Assembly: GCA_031287715.1 (NCBI GenBank)
Contig: JAITSN010000020.1
Span: 1 to 64,000, forward strand
Direction: 5' to 3'
Length of the DNA stretch: 64,000 nt
From: Mediterranea sp. (in: CFB group bacteria)
GTDB taxonomy: Bacteria; Bacteroidota; Bacteroidia; Bacteroidales; Bacteroidaceae
Position 1 is the first letter of the stretch. Each line of letters opens with the position of its first letter. Position numbers and translations under genes: made by a program. This document shows positions 1,176 to 28,535 of the stretch, in pieces. The notes below the pieces were generated by a model that was not told the DNA's origin, searched no databases, and saw only the letters and a list, made by a program, of their open reading frames with translations.

Positions 1176-3188
1176 ATGGAAGACAACAATAAAAAACCTA
1201 ATAGAGCAAATACGCCCCGATTCAATCTGAATTGGATGTACATGATCATCGCCATGATGTTATTGGGGCTATACCTGACCAACGAAAGCGGGTCTGTAAG
1301 CAAAAACGTATCCTACGATGAATTTCAGAAGTATGTTTGCAAAGGATATGTAAACAAAGTTGTCGGCTATGACGACAATTCCGTGGAAGCGTTTATCAAG
1401 CCCGGCCACGTGAAAGATGTCTTTAAACAAGACTCCACCAAAGCCGGCAAAAACCCGATGGTCATTACTGAAGCGCCGTCGCGCGGCAATCTGGATAATT
1501 TTCTTCAAAAGGAAAAAGACGAAGCTCATTTTGACGGAATAGTCAGCTACGATAAGAGAAAAGATTATTTCAGCATGATCCTGTGGAATATATTCCCTAT
1601 AATTCTTGTGATCGGCCTGTGGATATTTTTCACGCGCCGCATTAGCGGAGGTGGTGGCGGAGGCGCCGGCAATATCTTCAGCGTAGGGAAATCCAAAGCG
1701 CAATTGTTTGAAAAAGGAGGGTTGATGAAGATAACTTTCAAAGACGTTGCGGGATTGGCCGAAGCGAAACAGGAAGTGGAAGAAATTGTGGAATTTTTGA
1801 AAGAGCCGCAAAAGTATACCGACCTTGGAGGTAAAATACCCAAGGGCGCACTACTCGTAGGCCCTCCGGGAACCGGTAAAACATTGCTTGCCAAAGCTGT
1901 GGCTGGCGAAGCAAACGTACCTTTCTTTTCATTGGCGGGTTCGGATTTTGTTGAAATGTTTGTTGGAGTCGGCGCATCACGTGTACGCGATCTGTTCAAG
2001 CAAGCCAAAGAAAAAGCGCCATGTATCGTCTTCATTGATGAAATAGATGCCGTAGGGCGTGCGCGTGGCAAAAACCCAAGCATGGGAGGCAACGACGAAC
2101 GCGAAAATACGCTAAATCAGTTGCTTACCGAGATGGACGGCTTCGGCTCGAACAGCGGGGTCATCATTCTGGCAGCCACCAACCGTGTGGACGTACTGGA
2201 TAAAGCGCTGCTTCGTGCCGGACGCTTCGACCGCCAGATCCACGTAGACTTGCCGGACCTGAACGAACGTAAAGAAGTCTTTGGCGTTCATCTTCGCCCG
2301 ATCAAGATAGACAACAGCGTCGACATTGACTTACTTGCCCGGCAGACACCGGGATTCTCGGGAGCAGACATAGCCAACGTATGCAACGAAGCTGCACTGA
2401 TAGCAGCCCGCCATGGCAAAAAAGCCGTGGAGAAACAAGACTTCCTCAATGCTGTAGACCGCATTATCGGAGGATTGGAAAAGAAAAGCAAGATCACAAC
2501 GGAAGCGGAACGCCGCGCAATTGCTCTGCACGAAGCCGGACACGCCTCACTGTCCTGGGTGCTGGAACATGCAAATCCGTTGATCAAAGTTACGATCGTA
2601 CCGCGCGGGCGTGCATTGGGAGCAGCGTGGTACCTGCCCGAAGAAAGACAGATCACAACCAAAGAGCAAATGCTGGACGAGATGTGCGCCACCTTAGGCG
2701 GACGCGCCGCAGAAGATCTGTTTCTGGGCAGAATCTCAACCGGTGCGATGAATGACCTGGAACGGGTAACAAAACAGGCTTACGGAATGACCGCTTTCCT
2801 GGGAATGAGCGAAAAACTACCCAATTTGTGTTACTACAATAATGACGAATACTCCTTCAACAAGCCATACAGTGAAAAAACAGCCGAAACGATCGACGAA
2901 GAAGTACAAAGCATGATCAACCGGCAGTATGAACGCGCCAAAGGGATCCTGTCCGACCACCGGGAAAAACACAATGAATTGGCGCAATTGCTGATTGACA
3001 GGGAAGTGATCTATGCCGAAGACGTAGAACGCATCTTCGGCAAACGCCCGTGGGCTTCCCGCTCGGAAGAGATCATGGAAAGCGAAAAGAACCGCAAGGC
3101 GAAGTCCCAGGAAGAAGAAGCAAAGAATCATAAAGCAGAACCCGATACGGATATAACCGCCGGGCAAGTGGAAAAACTCAACACCTAA
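1176..3188 (+). CDS. ftsH: ATP-dependent zinc metalloprotease FtsH
   Basis: Walker [15 protein letters not shown] region, HEAGH zinc motif, N-terminal TM segments. Confidence 0.98.
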
Positions 3189-3202
3189 AACTATAAACTC
3201 AA

Positions 3203-4042
3203 TTGAAAAACCTTATTATACGAACAATTACCGGAGTACTGTTTGTGGCAATACTCCTGTTTTGTATTCTGTACGGCCCATGGCCCTTCGTTCTTCTATT
3301 TGCTGTCATCACCGGATTATGTGTATTTGAGTTTGCAACACTCGTCAACCGGACAAAAGGCGTAGCGATAAACCGGCTCATGTCCAGCATGGGAGGAGTA
3401 TATCTGTTTCTTGCTTTCATGGGATTCTGCACAAATGCTTCAGGCTTTATCCTGTTCATTCCCTATCTCGTACTACTCATCTACCTGATGGTGAGCGAGC
3501 TTTACGCCAAAAAGGAAAACCCGGTGAATAATTGGGCGTATACGATGCTCAGCCAAATGTATGTTGCCCTTCCCTTCGCGTTGCTCAATACATTGACATT
3601 CCACTATAATAAAGCTGAAGATGCCGTAGACTACAACGCCATACTTCCGCTATCCGTTTTTATTTTCACCTGGCTGAACGATACCGGAGCGTATTGCGCC
3701 GGCACGCTGTTTGGAAAACACAAGCTATTCGAACGTATTTCCCCCAAAAAGTCCTGGGAAGGTTCCGTCGGAGGCGGCGCGGCAACCATAGCCTCATCGT
3801 TCGTCTTTGCCGGCTTTTCCTCCATCCTGACCACGCCGGGCTGGGTTGGATTAGCATTGGTTGTGGTTCTGTTCGGAACCTGGGGGGATTTGACGGAATC
3901 ACTGTTCAAGCGCCATCTGGGAATAAAAGATTCGGGCGCCATACTGCCCGGACACGGAGGCCTGCTCGATCGCTTCGACAGCATCCTGATTGCCGTACCC
4001 GCAGCAGTGGCATATCTGTTTATACTCAAGAACTTTATTTGA
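3203..4042 (+). CDS. cdsA: Phosphatidate cytidylyltransferase
   Basis: Multi-TM; C-terminal signature GDLTESLFKRHLGIKDSGAILPGHGGLLDRFDS. Confidence 0.96.
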   Translation: MKNLIIRTITGVLFVAILLFCILYGPWPFVLLFAVITGLCVFEFATLVNRTKGVAINRLMSSMGGVYLFLAFMGFCTNASGFILFIPYLVLLIYLMVSELYAKKENPVNNWAYTMLSQMYVALPFALLNTLTFHYNKAEDAVDYNAILPLSVFIFTWLNDTGAYCAGTLFGKHKLFERISPKKSWEGSVGGGAATIASSFVFAGFSSILTTPGWVGLALVVVLFGTWGDLTESLFKRHLGIKDSGAILPGHGGLLDRFDSILIAVPAAVAYLFILKNFI

Positions 4043-18611: not shown

Positions 18612-19052
18612 TCACCTCTTATCTTTAGTTACGATGCCATCAAATATCTTATTTTGATGTTTCCGTTTGATGTGACAAACTTTTAATGTAGTAGAATCAA
18701 CAAAACTTATACCGGTGCAGCTACCCATGCGACAGGTTTTCAGGAAAATAACCAAAGCCGGCAACACACGTTGCTGTAATTCTACAAAACGAGTATAAGA
18801 AACCAAACGGGGAAAATCTCCACTTAAATGTTTGCAAACATAGAACAAATAATAATGTTTCAGATTTCTCATTCCGCTTAAATGAAAGCTAATCAATATA
18901 GTCATTACCTCGCTGTCGGAAAGGCGACAGGGCTTATTTCCACGCTTTTTACCATCGTCTTTTCTCAATTGGTATTTGGAGGAGGAAGATTCAAATTCTT
19001 TTGAAAATTCATCGATTAAATATTTGTAAATCAACACTATAAATATAATCAA
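18612..19052 (-). mobile_element. Truncated IS982-type transposase (N-terminal half)
   Basis: CRLSDSEVMTILISFHLSGMRNLKHYYLFYV...FVELQQRVLPALVIFLKTCRMGSCTGISFVDSTTLKVCHIKRKHQNKIFDGIVTKDKR*; catalytic C-terminus absent. Confidence 0.8.
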
Positions 19053-19524: not shown

Positions 19525-22212
19525 ATGACTTTTATCAACCCCATAGAAATTCTCGAACTGCAAAATTATTCGGTTTCCGATATTGGCAATTCAAGGATTA
19601 AGAAAGCGAAGAGAAAACTCTTTGCTGATATTGATTTGTCTGATGATGGGCTGCTTGATTATAAAGGTGTTTCTTTAACAAAGTCCGATTGCGAAACTGC
19701 GATTGGCAATCTAGAAAACCGTGAATGCGCAGAGTTTTATTCATACTTGGCAAGCAATAATCAACCGCTTAATGATTTTCTTGTAAATGGCGACGAAACT
19801 TTTTTCTCAAAATTATCACAAGAAAGCATTTACAAATTGCCTGAATTTGTAAATTTTATCAGTCCGTATTTTGCGCCGCAATTTGACAAGGCATTATTGA
19901 AATCATTCATTGAATTTCAAAATGGCAGTATGAATTCAAGAATTAAGATAAAACGCATTTTGCAGGCACAAATGTTAATTGCTCTTTCAAATATAAACAC
20001 AGCCTATAAAAGTGCAAGTATTGAAATTACAAATCGGATCAATCAAATTGAAAAAATTACAAAGGAGATAAAAAACAAAACAACAGATTATACCAATGAT
20101 GATATTAATGAGGTTGAGAGTTTGAGTAGAAATCTATTTCCTATTTATTTCTTAAATTATTTGCCACCCTATTTTCAAAGTCAAATTAATAAGATTGCTA
20201 CTGCAATCAATCAACTGCAACTTGCCATTTGGGGAAGTAATCTCTATAATCCTTCTGTTTGCAGACAACTTTTAGAACATTTACTCGCGTTGAATATAGA
20301 AAGCGTCAGTAAACAAACTTTTGAAAAAAATTATGAAATCGTAAAAAAAGCGGACGAAAAAGAAAAAGTACAAGATAAAATACAAAATCATATTAATAAG
20401 TTGATTGCTCTTATTAATTCCTTTGAAAGTAAGGCAAAAACAATAGCAAATGCAAGGGAATTGATTTATCAGGCGAAGCTGTATCTGTTTAATATAAAAA
20501 CAATTTCACAAGGGGACGATAACATATATATAAGTTTATCTACCCGTGTTGCCTCTATTGCTCAAAACTTTGTTGTTGAAGAAGTTAATAAACCGCAATC
20601 CTCAAACAGCCAATTTGACAGCATATTAGGTTTCCCAATATTGAAAAGCACACTTAAAAATGCGTGGGAGGTAATGCAATTGATTGGCTCGTTGGAAATG
20701 CAAAATGATTTTATAGTCAATCATTACAATCCGAACAAGGACACTTTACGCGATATTTGCAGCAAATTAAATGTTACAACCCCTCAATTAGCTTTGGGCA
20801 AAATACCACAATGCAATTTTATAATACTTGATAGCACAATTACGCATACTGATAAAGATGGAAAGTCATTGCCAATTACTAATCCATTTATTAGAGGTGA
20901 TGTAAGATATATCGGGCTTAATTTGAAAATTGAATCATTCGGAAACCAATCTGTTCAATTCGATTTGAAGTATGTAAAACCGAATGGAACATTAGAACGA
21001 GGCAGTTCCTCGCCTGATAGTTTTACTTTCTCAACAAATAAAATGATTAATTCAAATTCTACAATCATCAGTTTGTCGGGGTGGGGGAATAATGAAAAAG
21101 GGACTTATGAAGTTGGTATGCACCATATTGAAGTTTGGGCGGATAACTGTATGATTTACCGTAAATCATTTGTGGTAGATTGGTCGCAAGCAGAAAAAAT
21201 TGAAGTCGAAAAGCGAGAAGCAGAAATGCAAGAGCGAGAAAGAATTGAAATCGAAAAGCGAAAAGAACTGGCGAGAATTATAGAGCAAAAGGATAAAATA
21301 ACAGATACAATAGATATAATAGGCTATATTATTGGTTACCCATTAGGAATATATTTGTTAGTAATTTTGGGAATATGGTTAGGTGGTGTTGTACCTGAAT
21401 GGGTTCTATTCGTTTATATAATAGCAATGTTATACATTGGTACTTACTTGACTGCATTTAGTTTAATGTGGTCTTATTTCATTAAAAAGATATTTGTAAA
21501 AAATGATTCCACAAACAATAACACTTTAACAGTTATAACAAGTATTTTATCAATTATTGTGATAGGTTTTATTATTGTTGCTATAACAAAAATGTGCTTA
21601 ACAGAAAACTCATACACACCAACTGTAAAAAACAGTCCATACAACAATACCTCAAATTCTTATAGTTCGTCAAATTCGTCTTCGTCAAATTCTCACAGTT
21701 CGCCGAGTACTTACAAGTCAAACGACAACTCGTATTCCGAGCCTGCACACACGGAAAGCGAGTATAAAGGCAATCAACTTTCAAATGGGAGTTCGCCTTT
21801 GGATGGTTGTTTTGGAAAAGGTCGTTACAGCGGGCAGGCGTGGATAACTTTTAAAAACAGCAACGCTTCCGATGCGATTGTTTGTTTGGTAAGAGTTTCT
21901 TCAGAAAAAACAATCAGAAACGAGTATATTAGGGCAGGAACAAATTTTACGATGAATAATATTCCAAGTGGAACTTACTATTTGAAAGTGTACTACGGCA
22001 ACGATTGGAATCCAACAAAAGAAAATTTCTGTGGAACAAAAGGCGCATTTGACAGCGATGAACGTTTCAGTAAGTCTGATAACTATTCCGATTACATAGA
22101 AATCGAAAATTTGGAATATTCATACACTACAGGCGAAATTACACTTTATACAGTCGCCAATGGAAATATGTCGTTGGAACGAATGTCTGCTTCGGAGTTT
22201 TTTAATAATTAG
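19525..22212 (+). CDS. Large membrane protein of an Hsp70 operon: J-like N-terminal segment, coiled-coil region, ~3 TM, Ser/Asn-rich linker, C-terminal beta-rich domain
   Basis: 895 aa; N-terminus NPIEILEL..SVSDIGNSRIKKAKRKLF; TM at about residues 600-690; SSSNSSSSNSHSSPSTYKSNDNS linker. Confidence 0.8.
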   Translation: MTFINPIEILELQNYSVSDIGNSRIKKAKRKLFADIDLSDDGLLDYKGVSLTKSDCETAIGNLENRECAEFYSYLASNNQPLNDFLVNGDETFFSKLSQESIYKLPEFVNFISPYFAPQFDKALLKSFIEFQNGSMNSRIKIKRILQAQMLIALSNINTAYKSASIEITNRINQIEKITKEIKNKTTDYTNDDINEVESLSRNLFPIYFLNYLPPYFQSQINKIATAINQLQLAIWGSNLYNPSVCRQLLEHLLALNIESVSKQTFEKNYEIVKKADEKEKVQDKIQNHINKLIALINSFESKAKTIANARELIYQAKLYLFNIKTISQGDDNIYISLSTRVASIAQNFVVEEVNKPQSSNSQFDSILGFPILKSTLKNAWEVMQLIGSLEMQNDFIVNHYNPNKDTLRDICSKLNVTTPQLALGKIPQCNFIILDSTITHTDKDGKSLPITNPFIRGDVRYIGLNLKIESFGNQSVQFDLKYVKPNGTLERGSSSPDSFTFSTNKMINSNSTIISLSGWGNNEKGTYEVGMHHIEVWADNCMIYRKSFVVDWSQAEKIEVEKREAEMQERERIEIEKRKELARIIEQKDKITDTIDIIGYIIGYPLGIYLLVILGIWLGGVVPEWVLFVYIIAMLYIGTYLTAFSLMWSYFIKKIFVKNDSTNNNTLTVITSILSIIVIGFIIVAITKMCLTENSYTPTVKNSPYNNTSNSYSSSNSSSSNSHSSPSTYKSNDNSYSEPAHTESEYKGNQLSNGSSPLDGCFGKGRYSGQAWITFKNSNASDAIVCLVRVSSEKTIRNEYIRAGTNFTMNNIPSGTYYLKVYYGNDWNPTKENFCGTKGAFDSDERFSKSDNYSDYIEIENLEYSYTTGEITLYTVANGNMSLERMSASEFFNN

Positions 22213-22233
22213 ATCATTAAATATCAATATAAT

Positions 22234-22584
22234 ATGAACGATACGACAATATCAATTCCAAAAAAGTATATTGAAATACTTGACCAAGTTTTTGAAATAG
22301 AAAAGAAACTTGACGGTGTCAATGAGGCAAATACAATCGACAGAAATGTCAATCGGATTAAAGAAATGCTTGAGTACTTGACCGAGGATAGCGGTTTGAT
22401 TTATCAAAATCCGCTCGGCGAAACATACGACGAAACCCGCACCGACCTTGAAGCAAGTATTGCAGGTAAATCAGCCGATAACCTTGTAGTTACGGAAGTT
22501 ATTAAACCTATTATTCGCTTTCGCGCTAATGGGATAACAACCATTGTGCGTAAAGGCATTGTTGTTGTGGAATCTAAAAAGTAA
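22234..22584 (+). CDS. Minimal GrpE-like nucleotide exchange factor
   Basis: 116 aa; predicted helical region then VVTEVIKPIIRFRANGITTIVRKGIVVVESKK resembling the GrpE C-terminal beta region; same operon as the Hsp70. Confidence 0.55.
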   Translation: MNDTTISIPKKYIEILDQVFEIEKKLDGVNEANTIDRNVNRIKEMLEYLTEDSGLIYQNPLGETYDETRTDLEASIAGKSADNLVVTEVIKPIIRFRANGITTIVRKGIVVVESKK

Positions 22585-22604
22585 AACAAATAAAATTCAA
22601 AAAT

Positions 22605-23465
22605 ATGGGGCTATTTAATTTTTTCAAAAAAAGTAACGAAAACTCGCAAAAAATCAATTTTAGCGAAAGAGACATTAAAATTGGAACAAAAGTTTTGCTA
22701 TTAAATGTAAGCAATCGTATTGATTATCAAATGGCAAGGAAAATATTTATCGAAACTGCAATAGCCGCTAAGACAGTGGCGAGTTTTGACATCAATGCTC
22801 TGAAAAAGATAATGCTTGGGAAATATTCCTCGTTTCATTTTTTGGAAAGAGAAATTGATGCGTATTATCAATTTTTACTCGTTTTTGTAAAAACAAAAAG
22901 TCCGATAAATATAAGCAATTTTTCGAACGACTTTTATGATAAGATGTTTGAAGAAATACTTAACTCAAATCTGTTTGCAATGCCACAATATGCCTGCTTT
23001 GTTACAGAGAAAAGAGTGATTTATGCAAACAGCGAAGAAAATCAAATGGGCATAGTATCGGGTTATGTATATTTATGGTTGCGAAATATTATGAGTAAAA
23101 ATAAATTGTTTTACAAGCATATTTTATCTTTAATCCCAAATGATTTTGCAAGTTCATATGAAGAACAAAAATCATTGATTGGTGCAACCTTTTCAAGTGT
23201 AAAATTAGAACAACTTTATGAAGATAAAAATACAGTATATCAAATATATAATAGAATTAAAGCATATTTAAAATTGATTGACAGATTGACTAATGGATTG
23301 TTAGCATTTTACTCTGAACAAGAAAATGATATTAATTATTTTCTTTCAAGAGCAAATCAAAATTATTTACCAACAAATAAAATTCGAAACATTGCGCAAT
23401 TAAACATTCAAGATATTGACCGTATTTTTATTAGGGATATGCTGAATGGGAAAAATTTATCGTAG
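22605..23465 (+). CDS. Uncharacterized 286-aa protein in the Hsp70 operon
   Basis: Intact ORF, ~20-bp intergenic gaps on both sides, no recognizable domain. Confidence 0.75.
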   Translation: MGLFNFFKKSNENSQKINFSERDIKIGTKVLLLNVSNRIDYQMARKIFIETAIAAKTVASFDINALKKIMLGKYSSFHFLEREIDAYYQFLLVFVKTKSPINISNFSNDFYDKMFEEILNSNLFAMPQYACFVTEKRVIYANSEENQMGIVSGYVYLWLRNIMSKNKLFYKHILSLIPNDFASSYEEQKSLIGATFSSVKLEQLYEDKNTVYQIYNRIKAYLKLIDRLTNGLLAFYSEQENDINYFLSRANQNYLPTNKIRNIAQLNIQDIDRIFIRDMLNGKNLS

Positions 23466-23484
23466 AATTAAATACTTAAAATAA

Positions 23485-25977
23485 ATGGACAACACAATCA
23501 ATTTCGGAATAGACCTCGGAACAACAAATTCCGCAATCGCCAAGTTTGTAAAAGGTGAAGTAGTAGTTTTCAACAACCCGTTGGACTACGGCAGAGCAAC
23601 GCTACCTTCAGTGGTTTCTTACCGCAAAGACAAAATTATTGTTGGCAGCAAGGCAAAAGAGTATCAGGAAAAAGACCCCAAAAGCGTCGTAGGTGTTTTC
23701 AAACGCAAAATGGGAACTTCTGAAAGTTTCAAAATCAAGTCGCTTGGCGAATCAAAAACACCGATTGAACTTTCTGCACAGGTACTCAAAGAGCTGAAAA
23801 CCTTTGTAAATACGGGTGATACACTTGAAGCAGCGGTTATTACCGTTCCTGCAAGTTTCGACCTCATTCAGAGTAATGCTACAAAAGAAGCGGGTTATCA
23901 GGCTGGGTTCAAACAAGTTGTTTTGCTACAAGAGCCAATTGCAGCGAGTTTGGCGTATGCCAATATGAAAAAGACAAACGACCTGACAAATGGGCAATGG
24001 CTTGTGTACGATTTAGGTGGCGGCACTTTCGACGTTGCGCTTGTGAAAATTGCAGATGGCGAAATGAAAATAATTGATAACAAAGGTGATAATTTTCTCG
24101 GCGGGACGGATTTCGACCAACTCATTGTTGAGAAACTGATTATTCCAAAACTCAATGCCGAATACAGTTTTGAGAATTTAGAAGAAGACCTGAAAAGTGC
24201 AAGCGGAAAATATAACGCTAAATATTATGTGCTTTTGCGTCGTTCCGAAGAAGCAAAAATCCGCTTGTCTGCCGTCAGTTCAGCCGAAATTGTTGTTGAT
24301 GGTCTTGAAGACGAAGACGGTAACGATGTTGATATGGAAATCAGTATTACCCGCACAGAATTTAACGAGTTAATCAAGCCCGCGATAGATAAAACTATTG
24401 AAATGATTAAGAAAATTATTACTCGTAATTCACTAACTTCCATTGATCTGCAATTCACTTTGATGGTTGGTGGCTCTACTTATATTCCGTATGTGCGGCA
24501 AAGAATTGAGGAAATTTTGCAAATTCCTGTAAATTGCGAAATTGACCCGACAACGGCTATTGCTGTCGGTGCTGCCTATTATGCAGCCACAAAACAAAAG
24601 GAAGTGTCAAAGGCAGATAGGGCAAAAAAGAAAACAGCGATTTCAGTAAAAACAGCCTATAACAAGACCTCAAAAGAAAAAGAAGAATTGTTTTCGGCAC
24701 GAATTAAAGGCGATACAGAAGGATTGTTTTATAAAATCACACGACAAGACGGTGGTTTTGATTCGGGATTGAAAAAACTTTCGGCACGAATAAGCGAAGA
24801 TTTGCCGTTGGTTGAAAATGCCTACAACTTTTTTATATTTACGATTTACGACAACCAAAATAATGTAATTGAAGCAGATGTAGAAACAATCGGAATAAAT
24901 AGCGGATTCGGAATTAGTGGACAACCCCTGCCGGAAGATATTTGCCTCGAAGTAGATGATTATGACAATCCGGGGGAAACTCGCTTGGCTTTGGTTTTTC
25001 AACGAAATACTGTTTTGCCGACAAAACGGACATTGATATTTCCGCTAAATAAAACTGTTATAAAAGATTCAACCGACGAAGTTATCCGCGTGAATGTATT
25101 GCAGGGTTCTCACGACTCATTGCCTGAATCAAACAAAGTTTTGGGTAATATTTGGATTAACGGTAAGCAATTGATAAGAGACATTTCCAAAGGTTCAGAT
25201 ATTGAGATTACGGTGTCGCTTTCTGAGTCGCAAGACCTCACTGTTTCGGCATATTTGAATATGGCAGACCAAGAGTTTAAGGGTATATTTAATCCCAAAG
25301 AACGCGATACTCCTATTGAATTGCTGAAAGAACAGGTTGAAGATTTATCGAAAAAACTGAAAGAAGAAATCAAGCAGGCAACAGAAGCAGAAGATTATGA
25401 ATCGGCAAATGTACTAAATAAACTGCGCAAGGAAATGGAAGATATTTCGAACGAAACAAATTCTTTAACGCTTGACGATGTGACCGATAAAAAATATCAG
25501 TTGGAAGACAAAAAACGGAAACTTGCCCAAGAAATTGACAATGCCACCAAAGGCAAACGCATTGCCAAAGCCCGCGACGAGTATTTTGAAACAAGAGCGA
25601 AATGTGAGCGGTTGTTGGACGAAAATGGTAATGATTATGAGAGAAAGGCGTTTAACGACATAGTTTCGCAGGAAAAAGCGTTTTTCGCAACTAACAGTCC
25701 GATAAAAATTCAGGAAAAAGCAGATGAATTGCAGCAGATTATCGGGCAAATTCGCTGGCGTTTGCCTAAATTCTTACTCGATATTTTTGCGTGGTTATTG
25801 AAGGAACAGCCAAAGATGAACGACCAAATCCAAGCCAAAAGTTTGATAGAGGCGGGTCATTTTGCAACCAATAACAAAAATTGGGAACGGTTGCGTGAAG
25901 TTAATTTTGGTTTAATGGATTTGTTGCCTCGCGGTGTAAAAGAAGAAGCAACTCATAAAATTGGATTTGGATTATAA
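23485..25977 (+). CDS. Divergent Hsp70/DnaK family protein (830 aa) with extended C-terminal helical region
   Basis: FGIDLGTTNSAIAKF, VYDLGGGTFDVALVKI, FTLMVGGSTYIPYVRQRIEEI; long coiled-coil C-terminus without the usual acidic tail. Confidence 0.95.
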   Translation: MDNTINFGIDLGTTNSAIAKFVKGEVVVFNNPLDYGRATLPSVVSYRKDKIIVGSKAKEYQEKDPKSVVGVFKRKMGTSESFKIKSLGESKTPIELSAQVLKELKTFVNTGDTLEAAVITVPASFDLIQSNATKEAGYQAGFKQVVLLQEPIAASLAYANMKKTNDLTNGQWLVYDLGGGTFDVALVKIADGEMKIIDNKGDNFLGGTDFDQLIVEKLIIPKLNAEYSFENLEEDLKSASGKYNAKYYVLLRRSEEAKIRLSAVSSAEIVVDGLEDEDGNDVDMEISITRTEFNELIKPAIDKTIEMIKKIITRNSLTSIDLQFTLMVGGSTYIPYVRQRIEEILQIPVNCEIDPTTAIAVGAAYYAATKQKEVSKADRAKKKTAISVKTAYNKTSKEKEELFSARIKGDTEGLFYKITRQDGGFDSGLKKLSARISEDLPLVENAYNFFIFTIYDNQNNVIEADVETIGINSGFGISGQPLPEDICLEVDDYDNPGETRLALVFQRNTVLPTKRTLIFPLNKTVIKDSTDEVIRVNVLQGSHDSLPESNKVLGNIWINGKQLIRDISKGSDIEITVSLSESQDLTVSAYLNMADQEFKGIFNPKERDTPIELLKEQVEDLSKKLKEEIKQATEAEDYESANVLNKLRKEMEDISNETNSLTLDDVTDKKYQLEDKKRKLAQEIDNATKGKRIAKARDEYFETRAKCERLLDENGNDYERKAFNDIVSQEKAFFATNSPIKIQEKADELQQIIGQIRWRLPKFLLDIFAWLLKEQPKMNDQIQAKSLIEAGHFATNNKNWERLREVNFGLMDLLPRGVKEEATHKIGFGL

Positions 25978-26534: not shown

Positions 26535-28535
26535 ATGATTAAGCATATTCTGTTTTCTATGATTATGAGAAAGATGGTTTTTCTGTTTTCCCTGCTGTTT
26601 TGTTTTCTTGCGGCAGTGAACGCGCAGATATATGATCCTGTGAATTTTAAAACGGTTTTGACTCCGGTTTCGGATACGGAGGCGGAAATCATATTTACTG
26701 CTGCGATTGAGCCTGGGTGGCATGTTTATTCTACCGATTTGGATGACGGGCCTGTTTCGGCGACATTTCATATCGAAAAGACGGATGGCGTGGAGCCGGT
26801 TGGCAAGCTAACGCCCCGCGGTAAGGAGGTTAAGAAGTTTGACGAGATCTTCCGGATGGATGTGCGTTATTTTGAAACGAAGGGCGAGTTTGTGCAGAAG
26901 GTGAAGTTCACCGGCCCCGAATATGCCATTGCGGGATATTTGGAATACGGCGCGTGCTCTGACGAAACCTGCTTGCCTCCGACTCATGTTCCTTTTCAAT
27001 TTTCGGGACGGGCGTCGAAGGCCGCGCTGCCGGCAACAGAAGCTGAAACAGCTGAAGTAAAGGATGGCGGCGGGGAAGCAGTTGCGGACGATGCCGTTTG
27101 GACGAGCGATTTGTGGTCGCCCGTAACCGATGAGTTGCAGACATTCGGCCAGATGGCTTCGCAGAGAGACAGGTCGTGGCTCTATGTTTTTCTTGCGGGG
27201 TTTGCCGGAGGCTTGCTGGCTTTGTTTACGCCTTGTGTATGGCCGGTTATCCCTATGACCGTCAGTTTTTTCCTCAAACGCACAAAAGATAAAGCAAAAG
27301 GCATCCGGGATGCGGTGACCTACGGCGTATCGATCATTGTGATCTATGTCGCATTGGGCGTTGTGATTACGCTGGCCTTTGGGCCGAATGCGTTAAATGC
27401 GCTTTCTACGAATGCGGTATTCAACGTTTTGTTCTTCCTGATGCTGGTTGTTTTTGCCGCATCTTTCTTTGGGGCGTTCGACATCACCCTGCCGTCCGGC
27501 TGGAGCACTTCCGTTGACAGCAAGGCCGGGCAAACCCGCGGGCTGATCAGTATTTTCCTGATGGCGTTTACGCTGGCGCTGGTTTCTTTTTCCTGCACGG
27601 GGCCGATTATCGGTTTTGTACTTGTTGAGGTCGCCACAACGGGCAATCTTGTCGGTCCGGTTATTTGCATGTTCAGCTTTGCCCTTGCGTTGGCGCTGCC
27701 GTTTACCCTGTTTGCACTCTTCCCGTCGTGGCTGAAATCCATGCCCAAGTCCGGCGGTTGGATGAATGTCATCAAGGTGACGTTGGGTTTCCTTGAGCTG
27801 GCTTTCGCTTTGAAATTCCTTTCCATTGCCGATCTTGCTTACGGATGGGGTATTCTTGACAGGGAAACGTTTCTGGCATTGTGGATTGTGATTTTCGGTT
27901 TACTTGGCGCGTATCTGCTCGGAAAGATCAAGTTTCCGCACGACGACGACGGCACCAAGGTGAGCGTTCCGCGCTTCTTCATGGCCTTGGCGTCGCTGGC
28001 TTTCGCCGTATACATGGTTCCAGGCTTGTGGGGGGCGCCGCTAAAAGCCGTGAGCGCATTTGCCCCTCATATGAATACGCAGGATTTCAATCTGTACACC
28101 AAAGAGGTGCACGCCCGCTTTGACGATTACGACGCGGGAATGGAATACGCCCGCAAGAATGGGAAACCGGTTATGCTCGACTTTACAGGAAACGGCTGTG
28201 CGAACTGCCGTAAAATGGAATTGGCCGTGTGGACAGACCCGCGAGTGAGCGAAATCATCAACAACGATTATGTATTGATCACCCTGTATGTGGATAACAA
28301 GCAGTCTTTGCCCGAACAAATCCGGGTAACCGAGAACGGTAAAGAACGCGTATTGCGCACGTTGGGCGACAAGTGGAGTTACCTGCAACGTATAAAATTC
28401 GGAGCCAACGCACAGCCTTTTTATGTATTGGTGGACAACGGCGGCAAGCCGCTGAACAAATCCTATGCGTACGACGAGAATGTCGACCGGTATGTGGACT
28501 TTCTTCAAACCGGTTTGAAAAAATACAGACGGTGA
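26535..28535 (+). CDS. Thiol:disulfide interchange protein DsbD-like
   Basis: N-terminal DsbD-alpha-like domain, 8-TM cytochrome c biogenesis domain, C-terminal thioredoxin-like domain with GNGCANCRKME. Confidence 0.93.
   Translation: MIKHILFSMIMRKMVFLFSLLFCFLAAVNAQIYDPVNFKTVLTPVSDTEAEIIFTAAIEPGWHVYSTDLDDGPVSATFHIEKTDGVEPVGKLTPRGKEVKKFDEIFRMDVRYFETKGEFVQKVKFTGPEYAIAGYLEYGACSDETCLPPTHVPFQFSGRASKAALPATEAETAEVKDGGGEAVADDAVWTSDLWSPVTDELQTFGQMASQRDRSWLYVFLAGFAGGLLALFTPCVWPVIPMTVSFFLKRTKDKAKGIRDAVTYGVSIIVIYVALGVVITLAFGPNALNALSTNAVFNVLFFLMLVVFAASFFGAFDITLPSGWSTSVDSKAGQTRGLISIFLMAFTLALVSFSCTGPIIGFVLVEVATTGNLVGPVICMFSFALALALPFTLFALFPSWLKSMPKSGGWMNVIKVTLGFLELAFALKFLSIADLAYGWGILDRETFLALWIVIFGLLGAYLLGKIKFPHDDDGTKVSVPRFFMALASLAFAVYMVPGLWGAPLKAVSAFAPHMNTQDFNLYTKEVHARFDDYDAGMEYARKNGKPVMLDFTGNGCANCRKMELAVWTDPRVSEIINNDYVLITLYVDNKQSLPEQIRVTENGKERVLRTLGDKWSYLQRIKFGANAQPFYVLVDNGGKPLNKSYAYDENVDRYVDFLQTGLKKYRR

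Follow-up and report, generated by a model that had tools for sequence, protein, structure and literature searches.

A mobile gene triad encoding a divergent Hsp70, a GrpE-fold protein, and a J-like membrane protein in defense-rich neighborhoods of Bacteroidota and other bacteria

The window analyzed here (the whole stretch of 64,000 nucleotides) is contig 71 of a Bacteroidota assembly (2.5 Mb, 84% complete). Between positions 19525 and 25977, four intact open reading frames of 895, 116, 286, and 830 amino acids (aa) follow one another on the plus strand, separated by gaps of 21, 20, and 19 bp. They lie in an island (17.4 to 26.0 kb) with a GC content of 34.3%, compared to 49.9% in the rest of the window. 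An initial annotation of this DNA had described four intact, codirectional genes with gaps of about 20 bp in an AT-rich region flanked by pseudogenes, together with a separate housekeeping dnaJ/grpE pair. Gene arrangement and base composition agreed with that description, and the housekeeping grpE and dnaJ genes were located at approximately 10.6 to 11.3 kb of the window on the minus strand. The decay of the flanks held for the upstream side only, where the edge of the island carries a frameshifted, truncated remnant of an IS982-family transposase (18612 to 19052, minus strand; NCBIfam, 4.4e-23 over the first 98 of 243 positions) and further frameshifted reading frames are found between 17400 and 19400. 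On the downstream side, the 830-aa gene is followed by a short doubtful ORF and then by an intact ORF of 666 aa (26535 to 28535). The ordinary DnaK of the same genome is encoded on another contig. Two genomes of the same genus contain second, divergent GrpE matches (G005:C83 and G009:C135). Promoter and terminator scans of the locus returned signals that were no commoner than expected by chance.

The first gene (19525 to 22212, plus strand, as are all features of the locus described below) encodes an 895-aa membrane protein (component 1), which we call J-like as a working label and not as a family assignment. In the AlphaFold2 model of its N-terminal domain (aa 1 to 240; 19525 to 20244; pLDDT of 95.3), all secondary structure is helical apart from a beta-hairpin at the position where a J domain has its HPD motif, and the order of the helices resembles that of a J domain. 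A J domain was not established by Pfam (no match of the 895-aa protein to DnaJ, PF00226), a PDB profile search, a fold search (no PDB match to the model of aa 1 to 240; best E of 1.2), or hhalign (alignment of the J-like profile to DnaJ collinear and not significant; P = 0.011). HPD was found at the J position in none of the 58 aligned J-like rows; a single chance HPD occurs elsewhere in the sequence from L133. The membrane-anchored co-chaperone envisaged in the initial annotation is thus retained as an anchored partner but not as a J-domain protein, given the lack of a Pfam match, a fold match, and HPD.

Further along the J-like protein, a beta-rich region (aa 428 to 560; 20806 to 21204) matches the first protein of L021, a locus of a related branch that we call group B (phmmer iE of 1.1e-29, computed, like the E-values of the other group comparisons, on a small database). 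Hydropathy places transmembrane segments at approximately aa 595 to 690 (21322 to 21594), and most related J-like proteins carry such segments too. The C-terminal beta domain that follows (aa 743 to 893; 21751 to 22203) recurs behind the transmembrane part in several of the module's J-like proteins from other phyla, among them those of an Acidobacteria and a KSB1 MAG (L082, L086, L112, L098, and others). Similarity of this domain to SH3 proteins was considered and rejected (hhalign P of 0.6). Stand-alone proteins with the same domain occur in L023, L026, and L028, with no Hsp70 match in the stretches examined. In L105, L106, L107, L112, L119, L125, and L219, the J-like proteins are extended at the N terminus by approximately 240 aa or more, and the added part resembles TPR repeats.

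The 116-aa protein (component 2; 22234 to 22584) is GrpE-like by its predicted fold, in line with an earlier call made by eye, and is a predicted nucleotide exchange factor for its Hsp70. Its AlphaFold2 model had a pLDDT of 90.2, and the 10 best matches in a PDB fold search were GrpE without exception, some of them bound to DnaK or mortalin (probabilities of 0.77 to 0.99, with modest E-values of 0.008 to 0.14 and TMq values of 0.42 to 0.53). By sequence, the protein did not match GrpE in Pfam, and profile comparison with GrpE did not detect a relationship (hhalign P of 0.12, collinear only).

The gene that follows (22605 to 23465) encodes the 286-aa protein. A search of 60 related genomes gave no match to it, and the plasmids and phages searched contained no relatives. 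The only relative found forms part of a larger protein (513 aa) of a Prevotellaceae locus (L059, positions 2021 to 3562); the C-terminal part of that protein resembles a nuclease-type fold as judged by eye. The four-gene unit proposed initially was rejected because the 286-aa gene was found in only this one other locus. The core consists of the three genes that are conserved together (J-like, GrpE-like, and Hsp70; here the triad), and the 286-aa gene is an accessory.

The 830-aa protein (component 3; 23485 to 25977) is a divergent Hsp70, as indicated by Pfam (HSP70, 8.6e-74) and by its position in the tree. The nucleotide-binding domain (23485 to 24600; Pfam and alignment) keeps the ATPase residues that were checked: the equivalents of D8, T11, K70, P143, and T199 are invariant in all 88 aligned rows, and that of E171 is kept in 87, the residue in the remaining row being unread. 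Approximately 130 extra residues (aa ~373 to 503; 24601 to 24993) precede the recognizable SBD-beta in the alignment, and the canonical VLLLD linker is missing here and in the other Hsp70 rows inspected. For the SBD-beta-like substrate-binding domain (24994 to 25314), all 10 PDB sequence matches were Hsp70s or Hsp70 substrate-binding domains; these matches are weak (best E of 0.021), with a collinear alignment. The helical C-terminal region (25315 to 25977) is presumed from the alignment to be the lid, and the C-terminal Hsp70 profile A2 alone had no PDB match at 0.01. With both an ATPase domain that retains its catalytic residues and a substrate-binding beta domain, the protein belongs to the Hsp70 superfamily. 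Its scores fell below the NCBIfam cutoffs for DnaK (TIGR02350; 250 versus 822 bits) and HscA (TIGR01991; 234 versus 708 bits).

In DnaK of Escherichia coli, HPD touches linker residue L391 as well as P419, R167, and Q378 (PMC8215388). None of the 88 Hsp70 rows has Arg at the equivalent of Arg167, the DnaJ-docking residue of DnaK, and in all 82 group A rows N170 is replaced by Gln and T173 by Ile or Val. Judged from the sequences, neither side of the DnaJ-DnaK interface is preserved: the partner has no HPD, and the Hsp70 has neither Arg167 nor the canonical linker. The triad thus shares with DnaK-DnaJ-GrpE an Hsp70 ATPase, a GrpE-fold exchange factor, and a putative recruiting partner encoded alongside, whereas it differs in a partner without HPD or a detectable J domain and in an Hsp70 without Arg167 or VLLLD and with an extra region before the SBD-beta. 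HscA/HscB and HscC also combine a second Hsp70 with its own partner, but the triad has a dedicated GrpE-fold gene and, compared to HscA/HscB, falls far below the HscA cutoff and has no iron-sulfur genes in its operon. The changed partner contacts suggest that the triad probably works apart from the cell's own chaperones.

To describe the distribution of the triad, we searched 84,980 species genomes in a single scan with a profile of the C-terminal part of the Hsp70. The scan yielded 249 confirmed Hsp70 relatives, and gene content and order were tallied in the best 80 of these. A GrpE-like gene lies directly 5' of the Hsp70 gene in 67 of the 80 loci (median gap of 14 bp; gap or overlap of ≤60 bp in 59). 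The J-like gene, recognized by its N-terminal domain family, is present in 69 loci; the commonest position is 5' and codirectional (49), and most of the others are 3' and convergent (15). Dozens of genera share the J-like/GrpE-like/Hsp70 order, which argues that the triad is more than a chance arrangement, and the comparison of gene neighborhoods suggested in the initial annotation found it in Bacteroidota and in other phyla. Bacteroidota, Verrucomicrobiota, Planctomycetota, Acidobacteriota, Fibrobacterota, and Pseudomonadota all contain relatives; KSB1, a Clostridium, and Caenarcaniphilales are each represented by single MAG contigs that may be mis-binned, a caveat that applies to MAG contigs in the sample generally.

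Within Bacteroidota the triad is patchy, being present in approximately 2% of the sampled genomes. Searches detected the 116-aa protein in 7 of 346 genomes and the C-terminal part of the Hsp70 in 9 of 396 (the genome of the window is counted in both), and the Hsp70 was present in all sampled genomes that had the 116-aa gene. Of 18 genomes checked for copy number, 17 had one copy and 1 had two. Over 55 loci, the three proteins diverged together (r = 0.94 for J-like/Hsp70, 0.77 for J-like/GrpE-like, and 0.75 for GrpE-like/Hsp70; permutation P ≤ 0.001), with part of these values expected from shared ancestry alone. Common extras among the 80 loci are a TerB-like gene (27 loci) and a gene for a small hydrophobic membrane protein, DUF6804, which follows the Hsp70 gene (18 loci); several loci have a gene for a secreted SH3_3 protein ahead of the J-like gene. 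In L044 and L045, which come from two species of one genus, the gene immediately upstream of the GrpE-like/Hsp70 pair is GldN, placing the pair in a gliding motility/type IX secretion context.

In the Hsp70 tree, copies from different families and phyla are intermingled. The window copy pairs with that of a Prevotellaceae MAG, inside copies from Flavobacteriaceae, Saprospiraceae, and Chitinophagaceae and on short branches, and a conjugative Pseudomonas plasmid carries all three triad genes. The branch lengths, the mixing, and the plasmid copies indicate horizontal spread; together with the triad's own GrpE-fold factor and membrane-anchored partner, they support the earlier proposal of a self-contained, horizontally acquired chaperone unit. 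A phage origin was rejected, as searches of phage records and of viral contigs returned no relatives. Several Chitinophaga species share one syntenic triad site, which suggests domestication rather than island life.

The neighborhood of the triad is rich in defense genes. Among 101 neighbor proteins within 7 kb, 165 PADLOC families matched at an E of 1e-20 or better, compared to 4 families, all metabolic look-alikes, among 101 control proteins of like size from distant contig parts of the same group of genomes; the tally is of families rather than proteins and is inflated by overlapping related families. This content supports a link to defense islands, for which the initial annotation had proposed to look. 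Of 10 neighbors that were picked by eye and tested singly, 6 were restriction or candidate defense genes, and the set includes Type III RM, Type IIG RM, Dnd-associated Orf5, and PDC-S68. At other loci, the neighbor is a Type ISP restriction gene or a mad3-like gene. The proteins of the locus itself matched no PADLOC defense model (only a weak coiled-coil match at 0.097), and the module has no constant effector that is clearly a killing protein. A defense function of the triad is plausible in view of its neighborhood.

Group B loci encode a J-like protein, a longer protein whose C-terminal part is GrpE-like (hhalign E of 6e-5, again a small-database value), and an Hsp70, and most of those seen add a kinase-AAA fusion and a TerB-like gene. 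Of five such loci (L025, L029, L030, L058, and L220), all have the fusion and four have TerB, and BREX genes adjoin L030 and L220. The BREX neighbor in L030 is BrxC, and on a Haliscomenobacter plasmid group B adjoins brxL/pglZ.

We propose that the triad is a mobile, self-contained Hsp70 machine, insulated from DnaJ and DnaK, that is used in conflict at the inner membrane, and we give this reading an even chance of being correct. The membrane-anchored J-like protein would recruit or position the divergent, ATPase-competent Hsp70, which the dedicated GrpE-fold protein would reset. As one partner lacks HPD and the other lacks Arg167 and the canonical linker, we infer a private J-like/Hsp70 interface, insulated from the housekeeping DnaJ/DnaK. 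In a conflict setting, the machine would act on its clients at the inner membrane and might detect or handle proteins that are unfolded or foreign when a phage or plasmid attacks. A signal could then pass to variable accessories, such as the TerB-like, DUF6804, and SH3 proteins, the kinase-AAA fusion in the related branch, and the 286-aa protein in the window. We likewise infer a physical complex, client binding, a membrane site of action, and a defense role. The triad may serve in defense or stress, and given the defense genes around it, a role in conflict is its most likely use. Points against this reading are the lack of a constant killing effector and of a PADLOC model, the synteny in Chitinophaga, the GldN context, and the inflation of the family tally.

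The main rival explanation is envelope proteostasis, in which the triad would be an island-borne fitness or stress set for the upkeep or assembly of membrane or exported proteins, a role ascribed to specialized DnaK paralogues. The transmembrane segments of most J-like proteins, several of them followed by the shared C-terminal beta domain, fit such a role, as do the secreted SH3_3 protein, the small hydrophobic DUF6804 protein, and the GldN that precedes the GrpE-like/Hsp70 pair in L044 and L045; in Myxococcus, DnaK2 favors membrane proteins (PMC11019930). The strong excess of defense genes nearby, the patchy presence, and the carriage by mobile elements and plasmids all argue against this explanation, which we consider a real possibility that falls short of an even chance. 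A decaying or neutral duplication of DnaK, kept by chance in the island, would agree with the decay of the surrounding region but not with the open frames, the invariant catalytic residues, and a gene order conserved across phyla, and we regard it as very improbable.

The triad could also be a version of Hsp70 conflict systems that have already been proposed, with the other core genes lost or located elsewhere. Kaur et al. (2020) reported HSP70, GrpE, and a DnaJ-FNIII protein in 14% of GAP1-N2 neighborhoods, so that these GTPase systems share with the triad a dedicated HSP70, GrpE, and J-type partner, there as a proposed conflict-system switch (PMC7159879). CoCoNuTs use Hsp70-like domains, and their CnuD is, like the triad Hsp70, an Hsp70-like unit in restriction and defense superoperons (PMC11090510). 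However, the GAP1-N2 partners have a recognized DnaJ domain, which is not recognizable in the triad partner, and are found mainly in Actinobacteria and Firmicutes, whereas the triad occurs in other taxa. The triad also differs from CoCoNuTs in having no McrB/McrC core and in having its own GrpE-fold partner, and CnuD is predicted to hydrolyze ATP poorly, whereas the checked ATPase residues of the triad Hsp70 are intact. Neither a conserved GTPase gene nor an McrBC gene was seen among the recurrent neighbors in the triad gene-order table. This origin seems unlikely to us. The triad is a module for which we found no description in the open-access literature searched, a body that misses many journals.

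In Hsp70 machines, the contact of HPD with Arg167 and the linker is normally near universal. A triad that lacks HPD on one side and Arg167 and the linker on the other is thus a clean test of Hsp70 coupling without the standard J-domain mechanism. More tentatively, and with some doubt on our part, it may represent a further type of Hsp70 machine beside DnaK and HscA, with an HPD-less membrane partner, a different interface, and a use as an antiphage sensor or switch. Few examples link chaperones and immunity so far, among them DnaJ in bNACHT25 sensing (PMC12169576); the setting of the triad among defense genes and on plasmids, together with the branch that adjoins BREX, would tie chaperone action to phage immunity.
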